In this document: one piece after another, positions 4,681 through 62,883 of the stretch | How positions within the stretch are numbered: the stretch's first letter is position 1 | Layout of the letters: each line of letters starts with the position of its first letter | Origin: Methanosarcina thermophila TM-1 | GTDB taxonomy: Archaea > Halobacteriota > Methanosarcinia > Methanosarcinales > Methanosarcinaceae | DNA length: 64,000 nucleotides | Assembly: GCF_000969885.1 (NCBI RefSeq) | Contig: NZ_CP009501.1 | Span: forward strand, 2,556,908-2,620,907 | Direction of reading: 5' to 3' | The notes under the pieces: generated by a model | Told to the model about the DNA's origin: nothing | The model's database searches: none | What the model saw: only the letters and a program-made list of their open reading frames with translations | Made by a program: the position numbers and the translations under genes

Positions 4681-4845
4681 ATCAATCATTTAATCCAAAT
4701 CATTTAATCCAAATTATTTAATCAAAATCATTTAATCTCAAATCTTTTAATCCCAAATCATTTAACCAAAATCAATTATTTAATCAAAAATTTGATCAAA
4801 ATCATTTAATCAAAATCAATCATTATCCAAATTAATTATTTAATC
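4681..4845. repeat. AT-rich degenerate tandem repeat (AATCATTTAATC type)
   Basis: About ten diverged repeats of an 11-16 base unit, AATCATTTAATCCAA and variants, run up to the gltX ribosome site. The tract is non-coding and probably contains the gltX promoter, since many units resemble TTTAA-type TATA boxes. The exact promoter cannot be chosen. Confidence 0.75.
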
Positions 4846-6631: not shown

Positions 6632-7574
6632 CAGCTTTCCATTAATTTTTTAATTTTTCCGCAGAGAGAAAGTGTAGAATTAGTCAGTTTTTTTCTTTAG
6701 TATTTGCCCATTTGAAACTGTTAGTATTATTACTATCCAGTTAAAGAGAAGAAACTGTTAATATTATTACTATTCAGTTAAAGAAGAGAAACATCAGGGA
6801 AGAATTCGATATCGATAGACTCTCTTAGTATTATCCAATTAAAGAAAATAATCTAATCTCCAGGATGGTTATTGAAATAATTATTACTATAAATTATATA
6901 AATTAATGTGTTTGTTTTTATAATAGTTCTTAGTTAATGGATCAGGAAAACAAAAAAATATTTGCTTCTCAATTTCTAAAAATTTTTTATTATTATATTT
7001 TAAATTTTTGTCATTAGCAGCAGAAATATTCAATTATATTCGATTATTTTTTAATAACTTTTCTTCCTTATGTAAACAGTCTTCCCAAATTTCTCATCAA
7101 AAAAACAAAAATATTTTATAATATAATCTGTATAAACCCTGATAGCAACGTAATTAATAACAAATAAATGGAAACCTTTTAGAAGAGTTTCCCTGGCTAA
7201 AAACTGCCGTTATTGAAAACAGGAAGAATTGACCGGAAGGGGATTGTCCTGTATTCAGTAACAGATTTTTAGCGGTAGAAGCCAGAAATTCTAATCCGAC
7301 CTCACTTCCAATGACTGATCCCTATAAGGTTATTGGAGTGTGGGACTCTGTGTGCAGCGTGTCCGCCCCACATTGGTCGCAGAGAACCGGATTGGGTAGA
7401 TTCAAAAATATTACGCAGACGTAATTAGAATCTTTGAATTACTGTATAGACCCGGCATAATTAGATATTAGATACAGACTCGGTCTAATTAGATAGTTCG
7501 GAAAAACATTACGAGTAACGTAATATGGAATTTTGAGGAATATCTGGGAAAAATGTACAATAATCCTAGAGCAT
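6632..7574. other. Long AT-rich non-coding region with a 37-bp direct repeat
   Basis: No ORF with coding character. At 6714-6787 a unit beginning GAAACTGTTAGTATTATTAC is repeated almost exactly with a 37-base period, and a third partial copy (TTAGTATTATCCAATTAAAG) lies near 6826. Around 7339-7382 the segments TGTGGG and CCCACA can form a weak hairpin. Between 7410 and 7500 TAATTAGA recurs several times in a promoter-like setting ahead of the beta-helix gene. Confidence 0.6.
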
Positions 7575-7970
7575 TTGAGTTTACTCAAATTCTATATCCA
7601 ATCCAGAGGCGATACAATGGTAAAAAAGGAATTCAGGAACCCTGTTCCTGACAGCATGTTTTGCTTAAAAAACGTATCAGCTGTTGGATACACAACTACT
7701 CTATAGTTTTTTGAGTTTTCTCAGATTCTAAATCCAACCCAAGGTGATACGATGCTAAAAATGGAGCTGGAGACGCTGTTCCTGACAATGTGTCTTAGCT
7801 TAATAGTCGTATGTGCTTTGGGTAATTATACTAGGACCCCAGAGATTTCTTGAGTCCACTCAAATTCCAAACCCAACCCAAAGGTGATACGATGCTAAAA
7901 AGACAGATAGGAACCCTATTCCTAGCAGCATGCCTTATTTTAACAGCCGTACCCGCTGCGTTAGGCGCGC
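7575..7970 (+). repeat. Three tandem diverged copies of a leader plus signal-peptide start
   Basis: Copies begin at 7575, 7711 and 7850, each with TTGAG..CTCA, then a CCAACCCAAGGTGATAC-like ribosome site and an ATG (7617, 7752, 7892) followed by related signal-peptide codons. Only the third ATG opens a full gene. The first two give peptides of 29 and 33 codons (stops at 7704-7706 and 7851-7853). The ATG-to-ATG spacing is 135 and 140 bases. The copies have diverged, so the duplications are not recent. Confidence 0.85.
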
Positions 7971-8857
7971 AGAATACAATAACTGTAAATCCTACTGGGT
8001 CAAGTGCCCAGACTGCAATTAATAATGCAATAAATTCCGTAGCATCAAAAGCAACCTCAAGTAACCCTGGAGTTGTTATCCTCAGTGCTGGCACTTATAA
8101 GATAAGTGCACCTATAGTTTTGAAATCTAATGTAGTACTGAAAGGTTCCGGCGACGGCACAATAATCTTTGCCACAGGCTCAGTCTGTAATTCCGAAGGG
8201 GCGCCAGGATATATATTCGGATCAGGTGTTTCTAACGTTGAAGTATCTCATCTTCAATTCCAAAGTACGGCAACCGGACCTAAAGATGGAGGTCATGGAT
8301 CATATAGAAACTGCATAAGACTCTTATCTGTGAGTAATGCTAAAATACATGACATTTTATTCGATCGCTATCTGTATGGTGATGGTGTCAGAATAAGTAA
8401 AAGCTCTGGAATAAACGTATATAATTGCAGAATACAGTCCTCAGGGCATGATGGCGTATCATTCCTCTCCGGAACCAAGAATTCCAGAATGTATAACAAT
8501 TATGTTGAGGTTCAGACCAATACAGGTGTCAGAGTAGACAACTGTGCAAATATTGAAGTTGACCACAATACTTTCACAGGCAGTGCCGGATCTGGATGGT
8601 GCTGCGTTCAGCTCCAAAATACGCTGACTAATGTGAAAGTCCATCACAACATTATGCATGATTTTAAAGGATCAAGCAGCAGTGCAGGTGTTGGAAACTG
8701 GAACGCTAAAGGGTCAATTAGCGTTTATGATAACGTTATGTGGAACGTGTCTCCTTACATTCAGGTAGGCTCAGGCTCAAATATACTGGGACCATCTGAT
8801 CACAACGTTGATAATTGGGTGGCGAAAGGGTACGGATACGGCTCTCTCGGCAAGTAA
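7892..8857 (+). CDS. Secreted right-handed beta-helix (pectate-lyase-like) protein
   Basis: I chose ATG 7892 because GGTGAT lies three bases before it and a clean signal peptide follows (residues 1-26, ending PAALGAQ); an upstream in-frame TTG at 7850 would precede the ribosome site. The 321-residue product is a parallel beta-helix: repeated short rungs such as NVVLKGSGDGTII, NVEVSHLQF, NAKIHDILF, GINVYNCRI, NIEVDHNTF, NVKVHHNIM. This fold is shared by pectate lyases and other polysaccharide-acting proteins. No catalytic set is certain, so the substrate is unknown. There is no visible cell-surface anchor, which suggests release from the cell or non-covalent attachment. Confidence 0.85.
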   Translation: MLKRQIGTLFLAACLILTAVPAALGAQNTITVNPTGSSAQTAINNAINSVASKATSSNPGVVILSAGTYKISAPIVLKSNVVLKGSGDGTIIFATGSVCNSEGAPGYIFGSGVSNVEVSHLQFQSTATGPKDGGHGSYRNCIRLLSVSNAKIHDILFDRYLYGDGVRISKSSGINVYNCRIQSSGHDGVSFLSGTKNSRMYNNYVEVQTNTGVRVDNCANIEVDHNTFTGSAGSGWCCVQLQNTLTNVKVHHNIMHDFKGSSSSAGVGNWNAKGSISVYDNVMWNVSPYIQVGSGSNILGPSDHNVDNWVAKGYGYGSLGK

Positions 8858-9391: not shown

Positions 9392-11424
9392 ATGAAAGAT
9401 AAAAAGCATTTATTTTCAGTAACCATAGCATCAGCATCTCTGTTTATATATTTAGTTCTTGTATCCTCTATAGTAGTAGAGAGTCAGGATTCAGGAGATA
9501 TGAGAACTTCGGAATCTGGGATCGAGCTAATTCCAGTTTATTATGCAGAGTGTTCAGACCTTGAAATTCTATCTAAAATAACTCCAGATTCAATATACTC
9601 TATAAAAATATCACGGTAAAAAATACTGGTAAAGAGATATGGAATAAAGATGTCAAAGAACCGATCTGTATATCTTATCACTGGAAGAACACAAGTGGAA
9701 CTGTTATTCACGATGGACTCCGGACACATCTACCATATGATGTAAAACCTGGAGATACAATAATCTCCAGAACCCTGATAAAAACCCCTGACCAGGTGGG
9801 AAATTATACACTTGTTATAGATCTGGTTAAGGAAGGAGTTTACTGGTTTGAAACCAGGGGTATAAAACCTCTTGAAAAAGAAGTAGAGATCTCAAAAGAA
9901 CCTCTGGAACAAAAAGGGAAACTCCAATACAGGACAGATTATCCGGAAATAAATAAGTTACAGACTCTTATAGTAAATACGACAAACTCTTCTGCAACTA
10001 TTTTTTCAGACAACGGGACATTAATTTCCGGGTTTTATGCAGGCTCAGGTTATCCACAAATATGGGTTCGCAACAGTGCAACTCTTATTCAAACAGGAAG
10101 ATACCTTTTCCCGGAAAATTTCTTCAGTTCTTGGATTGAAGCATTTTGTAGCCGACAGGAAGAAAATGGCTCGATTGCTGATTATATTTCTCCATACGGC
10201 AGTGACAAAAATACAGTTGAAACCGATCAGGAAGCCAGTCTTGTTCATTCTGCATATTTATACTATAAGATGACTGGAAATCTTTCCTGGCTTGAAAAAA
10301 CGGTAGGAGAAAAAAGAATTATCGACAGACTGGATGATTCCCTGATGTGGGTGTTAATGATCCGTTATAACAATGATTATGGATTAATAACCGGGGCTTA
10401 CACTGCAGATTGGGGAGATGTCCAGTTTGAGGACACTCCTGGAACCCATGTTTCAAATGAAACACACTGGACATGTGATATTTACGACAATTCATTCTTT
10501 TTCCAGGCTTGCAATGAACTTTCTTTGATATACTCTGACCTTGAAGAGGAGGAAAGGGCAATTTTCTGGTCTGATACTGCACAATCAATCAAAGAAAACA
10601 CAAACAAATATCTCTGGCAGCAGGACAGGGGATATTATAAGATGCATATCCAGATCTCACCAGTTAACTTGGATTTTAACGAAGATGAGATATTTCCTAT
10701 GGGTGGAAATGCAATCGCGATACAGTCTGGCCTCGCAAACCATACCCAGGCTGAGCAAATCTTTGAGACTGCCAAAGAAAGAAAAGTGCAGGCGAATGCA
10801 AGCACCATTGGCAGTGTGCTTATTCCTGCTTATCCAGAAGGATTCTTTGCAAATCCTGTTATGGACGAGGAGTACGAGTATCAAAATGGGGGTCAATGGG
10901 ACTGGTTTGCAGGCAGGTTAATTCTTTAAGAATTTAAAAAGGGTCGCCATAAAGATGCAGTTACTCATCTGCGAGAAATTGCAAATCAAGACAATAATTT
11001 AGGAGGATTATACGAATGGTGCAACCTTAATGGTGAGGGTAAAGGCAGCCCAGCTTTTGTAGGGAGTGCAGGCGTATTGGGGCAATGCGTGATTGAAGGT
11101 TATTTTGGTATTGACCTTTCAAATAAAAGTTTAGTAATTACACCACGACTTGGGACAGACAATGGCTCTATATCTCTTTATGAACCGATATCAGATACCC
11201 AGCTTTCATACAATTACACATTTGATGATAATACTATAATATTCGATTATGAGACCAACTATCCTGGAGAACTCAGGTTTAATTTCCCAGTACCTGAAGA
11301 TAAACAAGCTTACATAGACTCAGGTATTCCTCTACAGAGTATCTACTATGAAGACGAAACTGGGAAATATCTTACATTTAGCAGTGAGAGCAAAAAATCA
11401 ATTTATAAAATTATTTACTATTAA
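9392..11424 (+). pseudogene. Broken secreted six-hairpin glycosidase-like gene
   Basis: Three segments form one protein of about 677 codons. The first (9392-9600) has a signal/membrane segment at residues 7-30. A missing A in the A5 run at 9603-9607 shifts the frame; the reading then continues from YKNITVKNTG through a beta-sandwich-like region into an alpha/alpha-barrel-like region (NGSIADYISPYG, ETDQEASLVHSAYLYYKMTG, YQNGGQWDWFAGRLIL). At 10927-10929 an in-frame TAA interrupts, but the same frame carries on (GGLYEWCNLNGEGKGSPAFV) to 11424. TAA is not the pyrrolysine codon, so recoding is unlikely. The intact ancestor would be a surface carbohydrate-active enzyme; its substrate is unknown. 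Confidence 0.8.
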
Positions 11425-11842: not shown

Positions 11843-13840
11843 ATGAGTATGATGAAAAAGATGAAAACATTTTGTAAGGCGAGTTTAATTTTTATGGCTT
11901 TAATTTTGTTTTTAATTGCCAGTACAGCATCAATAGTTACTGCGGAAAAAGTTTCGCCTGTAATTACTGAGACTCAGATTACTTCCAATGTATCAGATCA
12001 AATGCTGCCTGATATATATGGTGATAAAATAGTATGGCATGATACGCGCAATGGTAATCTTGATATTTACATGTACGACCTGTCTACTTCCAAAGAAACT
12101 CAGATTACTTCTAATGAATCATGGCAAGGTTGGCCTGATATTTACGAGGACAGGATTGTGTGGGAAGATGAGCGCAACGGTGTTTCCAATCCTGATATCT
12201 ATATGTATAACCTTTCTACATCCGAGGAAACCCAAATAACTACTAACGAATCATTTCAATTTAATCCTGCCATCTATGGTGACAAAATAATATGGCAGGA
12301 TTTCCGTGAGAATCGTGATGGAGATGCAGAAACGGATATTTATGTGTATGATCTATCCGCCCATAACGAGACCTCGATTGCTACCACTGCACTGGGATGC
12401 TGGGGCAACCCTCATCCAATGATCTGTGGTGATAAAGTAGTATGGTATGACTGTCTCGATGAAAGCAGGCGAGGCATCTACATTTATGATCTCTCCAGTA
12501 ATAAGAAAACTCTGATTTCCGCCGATGGATCAAAACCTGCTATTTATGGCGATAAAATAGTTTATGTGAAAGATAGTGTCAACTTATACCTGTATAATAT
12601 ATCCACATCCACAGAAACTAAGATTTCCACTATTGGATCATACAAAAAAAGCATCTCTATCTATGGGAACAGGATAGTGTGGGAGGACTATCGAAGTGAC
12701 CATCCGGATATTTACATGTATGATATCTCAAATTCTACAGAGACCCGGATCACAACCAGCGAATCAGTAGATGATCCTGTAGCTGGAACATATAACCCTG
12801 TAATATATAGTGACAGGATAGTATGGCAGGACTACCGCAATGGAAACAACGACATTTACATGGCTACTCTTACCTGGGATGAAGAACCGTCTCAGGATGA
12901 CAATAATTCTAATGACAGCAATACATCTGATAATGAAATTCAGATCACTACCAGTGGGTCAGCAGATGGTCCTTCTACCTACGGTGATAAGATAGTATAC
13001 GCCAGTACTCGCAATGGAAACACGGATGTCTACATGTACGATCGCACCACTAAAAAGGAAACTCGGATAACCAGCAGTCCAGATGCTCAGAGATGTCCTG
13101 CAATCTATGGTAACAGGATAGTGTGGCAGGATGATGGTGGTGAGGATGATGGATACACAAATCATGGTATCTTCATGTACGATATTTCCACCAATAAGAA
13201 GATGAGAATCAGTCCTACTGGGTTAGCATATGACCCTGCTATTTATGGTAACAGGATAGTATATTCAAGTACTCGCAATGGGAATACTGATGTCTATATG
13301 TATGACCTTTCCACTAAAAAGGAAACTCAGATTACCTCCAGTCCAGATGCTCAGACACATCCTGTTATCTATGAAAATAGGATAGTGTGGCAGGATGATG
13401 GTGGTAAGGATGATGGATACACAAATCATGGCATATTCATGTACGATATTTTCACGAATAAAAAAATGAGAATTAGCCCTACTGAATTGGCATACGAGCC
13501 TGCAATTTACGGTAACAGGATAGTATATTCAAATACTCGCAATGGGAATACTGATGTCTATATGTATGATCTCTCAACTAAAAAAGAAACTCAGATAACC
13601 AACAGTCCGGATGCCCAAAGATCTCCTGCAATCTATGGTAACAGGATAGTGTGGCAGGATGATGGTGGAGAGGATGATGGGTTCACAAATCATGGCATCT
13701 TCATGTACGACATCTCCACCAATAAGAAAATGAGAATTAGTTCCAGTGGATTAGCATACCAGCCTGTTATTTATGATAACAGGATAGTATGGCTATATGA
13801 TGATGGGTATAACTCCAATATATACATGCGCGAGATTTGA
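11843..13840 (+). CDS. Secreted double beta-propeller surface protein
   Basis: A 665-residue protein with an N-terminal signal peptide (residues about 8-35). It contains fourteen repeats of the PAIYGDKIVWQD / IYMYDLST type, the TolB-like propeller family common in Methanosarcina surface proteins. Seven repeats come before an Asp/Asn/Ser-rich linker (EEPSQDDNNSNDSNTSDNE) and seven after, so two seven-bladed propellers are likely. The second half contains three units of 264 bases that are nearly identical. No membrane anchor is seen at the C-terminus. The role is probably adhesion or cell-envelope structure. Confidence 0.85.
   Translation: MSMMKKMKTFCKASLIFMALILFLIASTASIVTAEKVSPVITETQITSNVSDQMLPDIYGDKIVWHDTRNGNLDIYMYDLSTSKETQITSNESWQGWPDIYEDRIVWEDERNGVSNPDIYMYNLSTSEETQITTNESFQFNPAIYGDKIIWQDFRENRDGDAETDIYVYDLSAHNETSIATTALGCWGNPHPMICGDKVVWYDCLDESRRGIYIYDLSSNKKTLISADGSKPAIYGDKIVYVKDSVNLYLYNISTSTETKISTIGSYKKSISIYGNRIVWEDYRSDHPDIYMYDISNSTETRITTSESVDDPVAGTYNPVIYSDRIVWQDYRNGNNDIYMATLTWDEEPSQDDNNSNDSNTSDNEIQITTSGSADGPSTYGDKIVYASTRNGNTDVYMYDRTTKKETRITSSPDAQRCPAIYGNRIVWQDDGGEDDGYTNHGIFMYDISTNKKMRISPTGLAYDPAIYGNRIVYSSTRNGNTDVYMYDLSTKKETQITSSPDAQTHPVIYENRIVWQDDGGKDDGYTNHGIFMYDIFTNKKMRISPTELAYEPAIYGNRIVYSNTRNGNTDVYMYDLSTKKETQITNSPDAQRSPAIYGNRIVWQDDGGEDDGFTNHGIFMYDISTNKKMRISSSGLAYQPVIYDNRIVWLYDDGYNSNIYMREI
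13097..13800 (+). repeat. 264-bp tandem repeats inside the propeller gene
   Basis: Units start at 13097, 13361 and 13625 with exact 264-base spacing. Each encodes two alternating blade types, one with WQDDGG and one with YSSTRNGNTDVYMYD. High DNA identity between units shows recent duplication; the third unit is cut short by the gene end. Confidence 0.85.
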
Positions 13841-55901: not shown

Positions 55902-55977
55902 GTTCCGCCCAAATCCCCCTTTCTCCAGCTGTAGAATCTGTAAATTTCAAAGATCCGCTTAACCTGATCTGGTTTTT

Positions 55978-56090
55978 GATCTTCCTACTTTCTTCCTGGT
56001 TTGATCTTCCTACTCTCTTTGCGGTTTGATCTTCCTGCTTTCTTCCTGGTTTAATTTTCCTACTTTCTTCCTGGTTTGGTCTTCCTACTT
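55978..56090. repeat. 25-bp tandem repeats downstream of msrB
   Basis: Four direct copies of GATCTTCCTACTTTCTTCC-GGTTT at 55978, 56003, 56028 and 56053, plus a partial fifth at 56078. They lie after the msrB stop on its transcript. On the complementary strand one frame could encode a Arg/Gln/Glu/Lys-rich repeat peptide, probably by chance. Confidence 0.8.
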
Positions 56091-62044: not shown

Positions 62045-62883
62045 ATCTGAAGGTTAAAAGCCTGATTTAAATTACAATCTTCTTTATTCCTCTTTATTCC
62101 TCTTTATTCCTCTTTATTCCTCTTTATTCCTCTTTATTCCTCTTTATTTCTCTTTATCCTCTTTATCCTCTTTACCTTCTTTACTCTTCTTTATTCCTCT
62201 TTTATCTTCATTAATTTTTTAGGAAAGATTCCCCCAGAACAAATCACTCAGGCATGATATCCAGAATAGGGAGAACAACTGAGAAGAGTGAAAGAAAACA
62301 AAGATGAGTGAAAGAAAACCACTTAGAAGAGTAAAAGAGAACAAAGATGAATGAAAGAGAACAACTGAGGAGAGTTAAGCCGGAAATCATGTATATAACT
62401 CAATATATTTTATTGAAAACAGGTTGTTAACCTGTAGATTCCAGTGGAAATAAGGGGGTACTGAAGCTCTCAGGAAAGTTGATAAAAAGATAAGAATGAA
62501 TGCACTCAAGAGAATAAATATTTACAGACCCTCAAGCGAACTTTAAGAGATAAAATTGCAGAAAAAGTGCCTGAGGGTCTTCAACAATCAAACCAAAACG
62601 GAGAAGAGAAACTCTCTAGAATGAAAAATGAAAATATTAGAGATAAATTGAGGAGTATATAGAAAAGAAACAAAAAAGAGAGAAACGAAAGAAATACAGA
62701 TAGTAAAGAAAATTAACCCGCAGAAGTTTCCAGTGGAAATAAAGGGGTCCCTCTTTACAACAGAGATTAAATAAAGTCAAAAGTCTCAAAAAACAGAGCA
62801 TAGATAGCGGAGAATTGAAGTAAAAAAATAAAAAAATCTGGAAAATTAAAAGTAAATATGAAAAATTGGAGGAAAGTTAGGAA
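62045..62883. repeat. Repeat-rich spacer before the radical SAM gene
   Basis: Three separate repeats. (1) 62081-62140: TCTTTATTCC, six perfect 10-base copies, then degenerate ones to about 62200. (2) 62275-62375: a 43-44-base unit around CTGAGAAGAGTGAAAGAAAA present twice with a third start. (3) TTAACC..AGATTCCAGTGGAAATAA..GGGGT at 62427-62460 and again at 62713-62750. The last has a TTCCAGTGGAA palindrome. No protein gene is visible. Confidence 0.8.

Follow-up and report, generated by a model that had tools for sequence, protein, structure and literature searches.

Why would a gene carry the beginning of its own message three times in a row? The question arises in a 64,000-nucleotide stretch of the Methanosarcina thermophila TM-1 genome (hereafter, the window), where a forward-strand gene (7892-8857) encodes a secreted right-handed beta-helix protein of 321 amino acids (Pfam Beta_helix, 5.8e-11; Pect-lyase_RHGA_epim, 1e-10). 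The initial annotation of the region described the leader and signal-peptide start of this gene as present in three tandem, diverged copies, and our repeat search, alignment and shuffled controls bore this out. Direct repeats start at positions 7575, 7711 and 7850 (spacing of 136 and 139 nt), with pairwise identities of 72-77% (92/119, 85/116 and 88/122) and a mean column identity of 78% in the three-copy alignment. Local scores between copies ranged from 100 to 116, whereas shuffled sequences reached no more than 27-34 (z of 27-33). The repeat claim also survived the dot plot of positions 7500-8000 on which it had been staked: with mismatches tolerated, the off-diagonals at offsets 136, 140 and 275 dominated the plot.

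All three copies lie on the forward strand, and each of the two extra ones has its own ribosome site and ATG. Copy 1 (7575-7706) carries TTGAGTTTACTCAA, the ribosome site GAGGCGAT and a 29-codon mini-ORF (ORF1, 7617-7706) that ends in TAG. Copy 2 (7711-7853) has the ribosome site AGGTGAT (7742-7748) and a 33-codon mini-ORF with a TGA stop (ORF2, 7752-7853), and copy 3 (7850-7968) combines the ribosome site AGGTGAT (7882-7888) with the start of the main gene and its signal peptide. The mini-ORF lengths and the main-gene start at 7892 agree with the initial annotation, small corrections apart. The motif it described as common to the copies is present, but copy 1 carries AGGCGATAC rather than GGTGATAC; ORF1 does end before copy 3, but the ORF2 stop codon sits within the TTGAG of copy 3 and not ahead of it. 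Hairpins internal to the unit (TTGAG/CTCAA and GGAA/TTCC) were unsupported as RNA structure, given the loss of the pairing in copy 2 and the near absence of compensatory changes. Microhomology was insufficient as a cause of the duplication, the sequence that precedes copy 1 matching the junction of signal peptide and mature protein in the window over only 8 bp. Elsewhere, the window contains a degenerate AT-rich minisatellite of approximately 14-bp units directly upstream of the glutamyl-tRNA synthetase gene (4684-4845), two direct 37-bp repeats downstream of the same gene (6714-6792; 90%), three in-frame repeats of 264 bp (12991-13790; 85% matches) within a Methanosarcina-type beta-propeller gene (11843-13840), and short arrays of 25-bp (55975-56090; 4.6 units) and 10-bp (62081-62202; 12.5 units) repeats.

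Where the message begins bears directly on what the copies may do. The matrix used in our promoter search was trained on 30 tRNA promoters of the window genome (CGAAAA followed by a TATATA-like stretch). The only strong core promoter match nearby, P0 (BRE/TATA, CAAAAATATTTTATAA; 7106-7121, forward strand), lies approximately 470 bp upstream of copy 1 and is predicted at 13.1 bits, above the 99.99th percentile of the window (10.7). Its 16-mer or a close variant scores at least 9 bits in nearly all of 50 loci that carry the upstream element described below. By contrast, the best sites before copies 1, 2 and 3 averaged 3.6, 4.3 and 2.9 bits in this sequence test. The part of the initial annotation that invoked promoter duplication was thus not supported, no copy having a convincing core promoter of its own. 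P0 would place the start some 38-40 nt past the BRE, at a 5' hairpin (arms 7144-7151 and 7185-7192), and transcription probably begins near 7144. Compensatory changes affect 8 of 8 pairs of this hairpin across 38 sequences, each double change occurring in one or two sequences only, and none of 500 shuffles scored as high. In the window species the hairpin has partly degenerated; there, GGAAAC (7170-7175) and GTTTCC (7187-7192) can form an alternative pairing. Taken together, the strength of P0, the position of the covarying hairpin at the expected start and the covariation in a second helix (helix B, below) suggest that the region is probably spanned by one leader transcript of approximately 750 nt. 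As the sole strong promoter match nearby lies within the upstream element, the copies are probably tandem translation-start modules rather than tandem promoters.

The predicted leader includes a conserved element of approximately 480 nt (7093-7575, forward strand), delimited by its conservation profile, that lies directly upstream of copy 1 and was missing from the earlier account of the locus. It is probably the 5' part of the mRNA leader. Of the 61 loci examined, 56 have a match to the element profile ahead of the leader units, where the element precedes disaggregatase-family and other secreted genes, and main-type and other-type elements share an average identity of 72%. DNA searches recovered it from 28 of the 31 Methanosarcina genomes, and the family's 81 other genomes yielded none. 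With a covariance model built on its core, matches came from 27 of the 186 genomes in the order, all of them Methanosarcina, under search filters strict enough that distant relatives could escape. The window genome (a single contig of 3.13 Mb) has two copies. Many of the leader-bearing genes encode beta-helix products that are approximately 28-36% identical to the window protein, yet their leader DNA is 80-90% identical. Among the products are proteins bearing Disaggr_repeat or Disaggr_assoc domains, as well as one group without a Pfam match. Orthologues of the window gene in two genomes (G001 and G009) also bear PF06848 Disaggr_repeat, whereas the window protein shows the beta-helix part only; a search of solved structures gave no sequence match for it or for two relatives. 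The orthologue in another genome (G008, C1:3753866-3754693, L046) contains an internal TAA stop. Downstream of the main gene in the window, a secreted glycosidase-like gene (9392-11424, forward strand; weak Bac_rhamnosid6H, GDE_C and Trehalase matches) is apparently broken into a 75-amino acid N-terminal piece, a long frame, open from 9577 until the TAA at 10927-10929, and a continuation in that same frame to 11424, and is possibly a recent pseudogene.

Within the element, two inverted repeats on the forward strand, A1 (ATTACG-CAGA-CGTAAT, 7410-7425) and A2 (ATTACG-AGTAA-CGTAAT, 7508-7524), are nearly invariant in 50 loci. Such palindromes could be protein-binding DNA sites (operators), which would suit a promoter directly upstream of copy 1. 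This raises an alternative in which the duplicated unit carries the promoter, transcription starts before each copy and A1, helix B and A2 serve as operators for a dedicated regulator. Conservation within the leader is highest between A1 and copy 1, a GGGAAA-TATAC-like stretch lies ahead of each copy, and the three genome-wide occurrences of the inverted repeat ATTACGNNNNCGTAAT are all inside the two element copies (a reversed control pattern had no match); all three observations would fit such an arrangement. Set against them are the gap between the copy-proximal means (2.9-4.3 bits) and P0, and the free drift of the spacer upstream of copy 3, which at 2.73 changes per site argues that no conserved promoter is present there. 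Helix B itself (7452-7455/7498-7501 and 7458-7465/7484-7491, forward strand) includes two pairs with compensatory changes (13 and 9 of the 36 sequences, respectively) and has 23 double-change cells compared to 8.5 after shuffling. Its pairing persists despite large variation in the distance between the arms, a behavior better suited to RNA than to an operator. We consequently regard tandem promoters as unlikely. Elsewhere in the element, most candidate helices in a global covariation analysis did not exceed column shuffles, the helices tried at 7220, 7229, 7305 and 7346 failed as registered, and Rfam 15 models returned only chance-level matches, none relevant, for positions 7000-8000. On the covariation of the 5' hairpin and helix B, we class the putative leader as a structured RNA with covarying helices.

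A single leader that ends in three start modules could still be an accident of recombination, and the distribution of the array across the genus speaks to this. Among the loci fetched, 19 in 17 Methanosarcina genomes have three copies and 7 have two; one copy is found at L090, a second copy of the gene. The array precedes orthologues of the window gene throughout the genus. In the unit tree, the copies group mainly by position and not by genome, indicating that the triplication is older than most of the genus and that the copies have not been homogenized. The initial annotation had offered, as one of two readings, a fossil of promoter/leader duplications. On such a view, recombination would have duplicated the start region, leaving extra copies without function. 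Several features of the loci are in keeping with such a history. Several two-copy arrays join parts of adjacent copies, as recombination between copies would yield, and leader units have been duplicated at other loci as well, some with truncated ORFs and with first copies in several separate clusters; copy 1 itself lacks codon constraint, carries a compensated frameshift in the window clade and is broken in one genome. Yet both extra copies are kept, with copy-specific sequences, in nearly all orthologous loci, and both have changed more slowly than the third codon positions of the gene. Parsimony on the gene tree gave 0.76, 0.85 and 0.98 changes per site for the UTR pieces of copies 1, 2 and 3, 1.32 for ORF1, 1.40 for ORF2 and 0.73 for the signal peptide, compared to 2.13 for third codon positions and the already noted value for the spacer before copy 3. 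Because the modules change more slowly than third codon positions and the spacer faster, selection maintains the modules while the spacer drifts. Together with the codon signal in ORF2 (below), these rates make a functionless remnant distinctly improbable for the array overall; at most, the description may apply to part of copy 1.

The second reading in the initial annotation, functional tandem small-peptide leaders, fits copy 2 and falls short for copy 1. ORF2 is open in all 19 three-copy loci, free of indels and 27-34 codons long in the relatives, an intactness with P=0.049 under a simulation that imposed no codon constraint. Its changes number 28/26/53 at codon positions 1, 2 and 3, an excess at the third (binomial P=4e-4; site permutation P=0.007), and its dN/dS of 0.52 is confined to the reading frame; the 19 loci behind these statistics include close relatives, and the signal is of moderate strength. 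With copy-specific sequences retained genus-wide, these patterns provide moderate evidence that the ORF2 peptide is under protein-level selection. ORF1, on the other hand, has 25/32/26 changes and a dN/dS of 1.12, indicative of no codon constraint. It is open in 18 of 19 loci, the exception (G015) being cut to 3 codons, and in the window clade its frame includes a compensated +1/-1 shift. The missing codon signal and the 3-codon remnant argue against every mini-ORF mattering as a peptide; copy 1 may instead act via RNA or DNA, or may have decayed in part. Most of the ORF1 and ORF2 peptides retain their basic N-terminus and hydrophobic core, but the window-species ORF1 has lost most of its hydrophobicity via the frame change. 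In the window, the TAG stop of ORF1 is in frame with ORF2, such that read-through with pyrrolysine would fuse both peptides. As a general mechanism this fusion was rejected, because relatives mostly have TAA or TGA stops and a spacing that is often no multiple of three.

Selection on ORF2 could also mean that the mini-ORFs encode small membrane or secreted microproteins acting in trans, with no regulation of the main gene required. Protein-level selection on ORF2 agrees with this proposal, as does the likeness of its basic N-terminus and hydrophobic core to a signal peptide or short membrane helix. However, the mini-ORFs always directly precede the gene, and the leader loci collected contained no free-standing mini-ORF with a peptide of the ORF1 or ORF2 type. 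We therefore judge microproteins acting in trans to be very unlikely. The selected peptide and the proximity of its stop to the main ATG (mostly 35-58 nt) fit an upstream ORF that acts on the main ORF.

The reading that we favor, to which we assign about an even chance, is that the copies are tandem translation-start modules at the end of one leader of approximately 750 nt, with the selected ORF2 peptide tuning translation of the main gene. A single promoter at approximately 7106 would drive this leader, which would open with the 5' hairpin followed by further helices and finish at its 3' end with three modules, each comprising a spacer, a Shine-Dalgarno site, an ATG and signal-peptide codons. 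Ribosomes could initiate at three similar, consecutive sites in one transcript. Copies 1 and 2 would supply upstream mini-ORFs that are mostly 26-34 codons long, approximately the length of the ribosome exit tunnel, and that mostly stop 35-69 nt ahead of the next ATG. Mini-ORF 2 would be translated as a leader peptide in every mRNA of the main gene and would most likely adjust synthesis of the beta-helix protein through ribosome traffic or occupancy, reinitiation or an effect of the nascent peptide. The resemblance of the ORF2 peptide to the signal peptide of the gene itself makes a possible link to membrane targeting attractive.

Upstream ORFs, leader peptides and long conserved 5' UTRs are kinds of element already known, including in Methanosarcina (PMC11456600, PMC3361143). 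Ribosome profiling of M. mazei placed 10% of the unannotated small ORFs in 5' UTRs (PMC11456600), and the S-layer gene slmA1 has a mapped, conserved 5' UTR of 154-159 nt with dyad symmetries (PMC3361143). The latter parallels our locus as a surface-protein gene of the same genus with a long conserved 5' UTR and dyad symmetries, but it is shorter than the approximately 750 nt predicted here, and repeated start modules are not described for it (PMC3361143). As in regulation by upstream ORFs or leader peptides of the attenuator or arrest-peptide type, short ORFs of typical leader-peptide length with their own ribosome sites occupy the 5' leader of one gene, with ORF2 selected and ORF1 not. The difference lies in the use of two tandem, diverged copies of the gene's own start, with no recognized arrest motif or ligand. 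Export-sensing leader ORFs include SecM, VemP and MifM; in the SecM/VemP type, a secretory signal is followed by an arrest motif at tunnel length or beyond. Here, too, a secretory-signal-like peptide is encoded directly upstream of a gene connected to secretion, but the gene is archaeal and codes for a secreted protein instead of export machinery, and the peptides are much shorter (26-34 codons) and carry no known arrest motif. We rejected an export sensor of the SecM/VemP type because the peptide stops soon after its hydrophobic core, too short for the known design. A broader proposal, which we advance as speculative and rather improbable, is a genus-specific archaeal device: a long structured leader would end in repeats of the gene's own signal-peptide start, and the signal-like nascent peptides made from the upstream copies would report on secretion or membrane-targeting capacity, thereby setting the translation of secreted proteins that act at the surface or on the matrix. 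Neither the leader nor the 480-nt element, nor any use of tandem copies of a gene's own start module as upstream ORFs, was described in the open-access literature and Rfam that we searched, and the leader peptide sequences had no match in that literature.

In archaea, little work has addressed translational control via long structured leaders and upstream ORFs. The shared element of approximately 480 nt and the tandem start modules, one of them selected, provide a clear genus-wide case that is testable in the genetically tractable Methanosarcina. The leader-bearing genes also touch on the disaggregatase-related secreted proteins of this genus (PF06848 and PF08480), whose domains occur in orthologues of the window gene and in some of the other leader-bearing genes. 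If the leader controls proteins of the disaggregatase family, this may be relevant to the way in which Methanosarcina alternates between clumped and single-cell growth.
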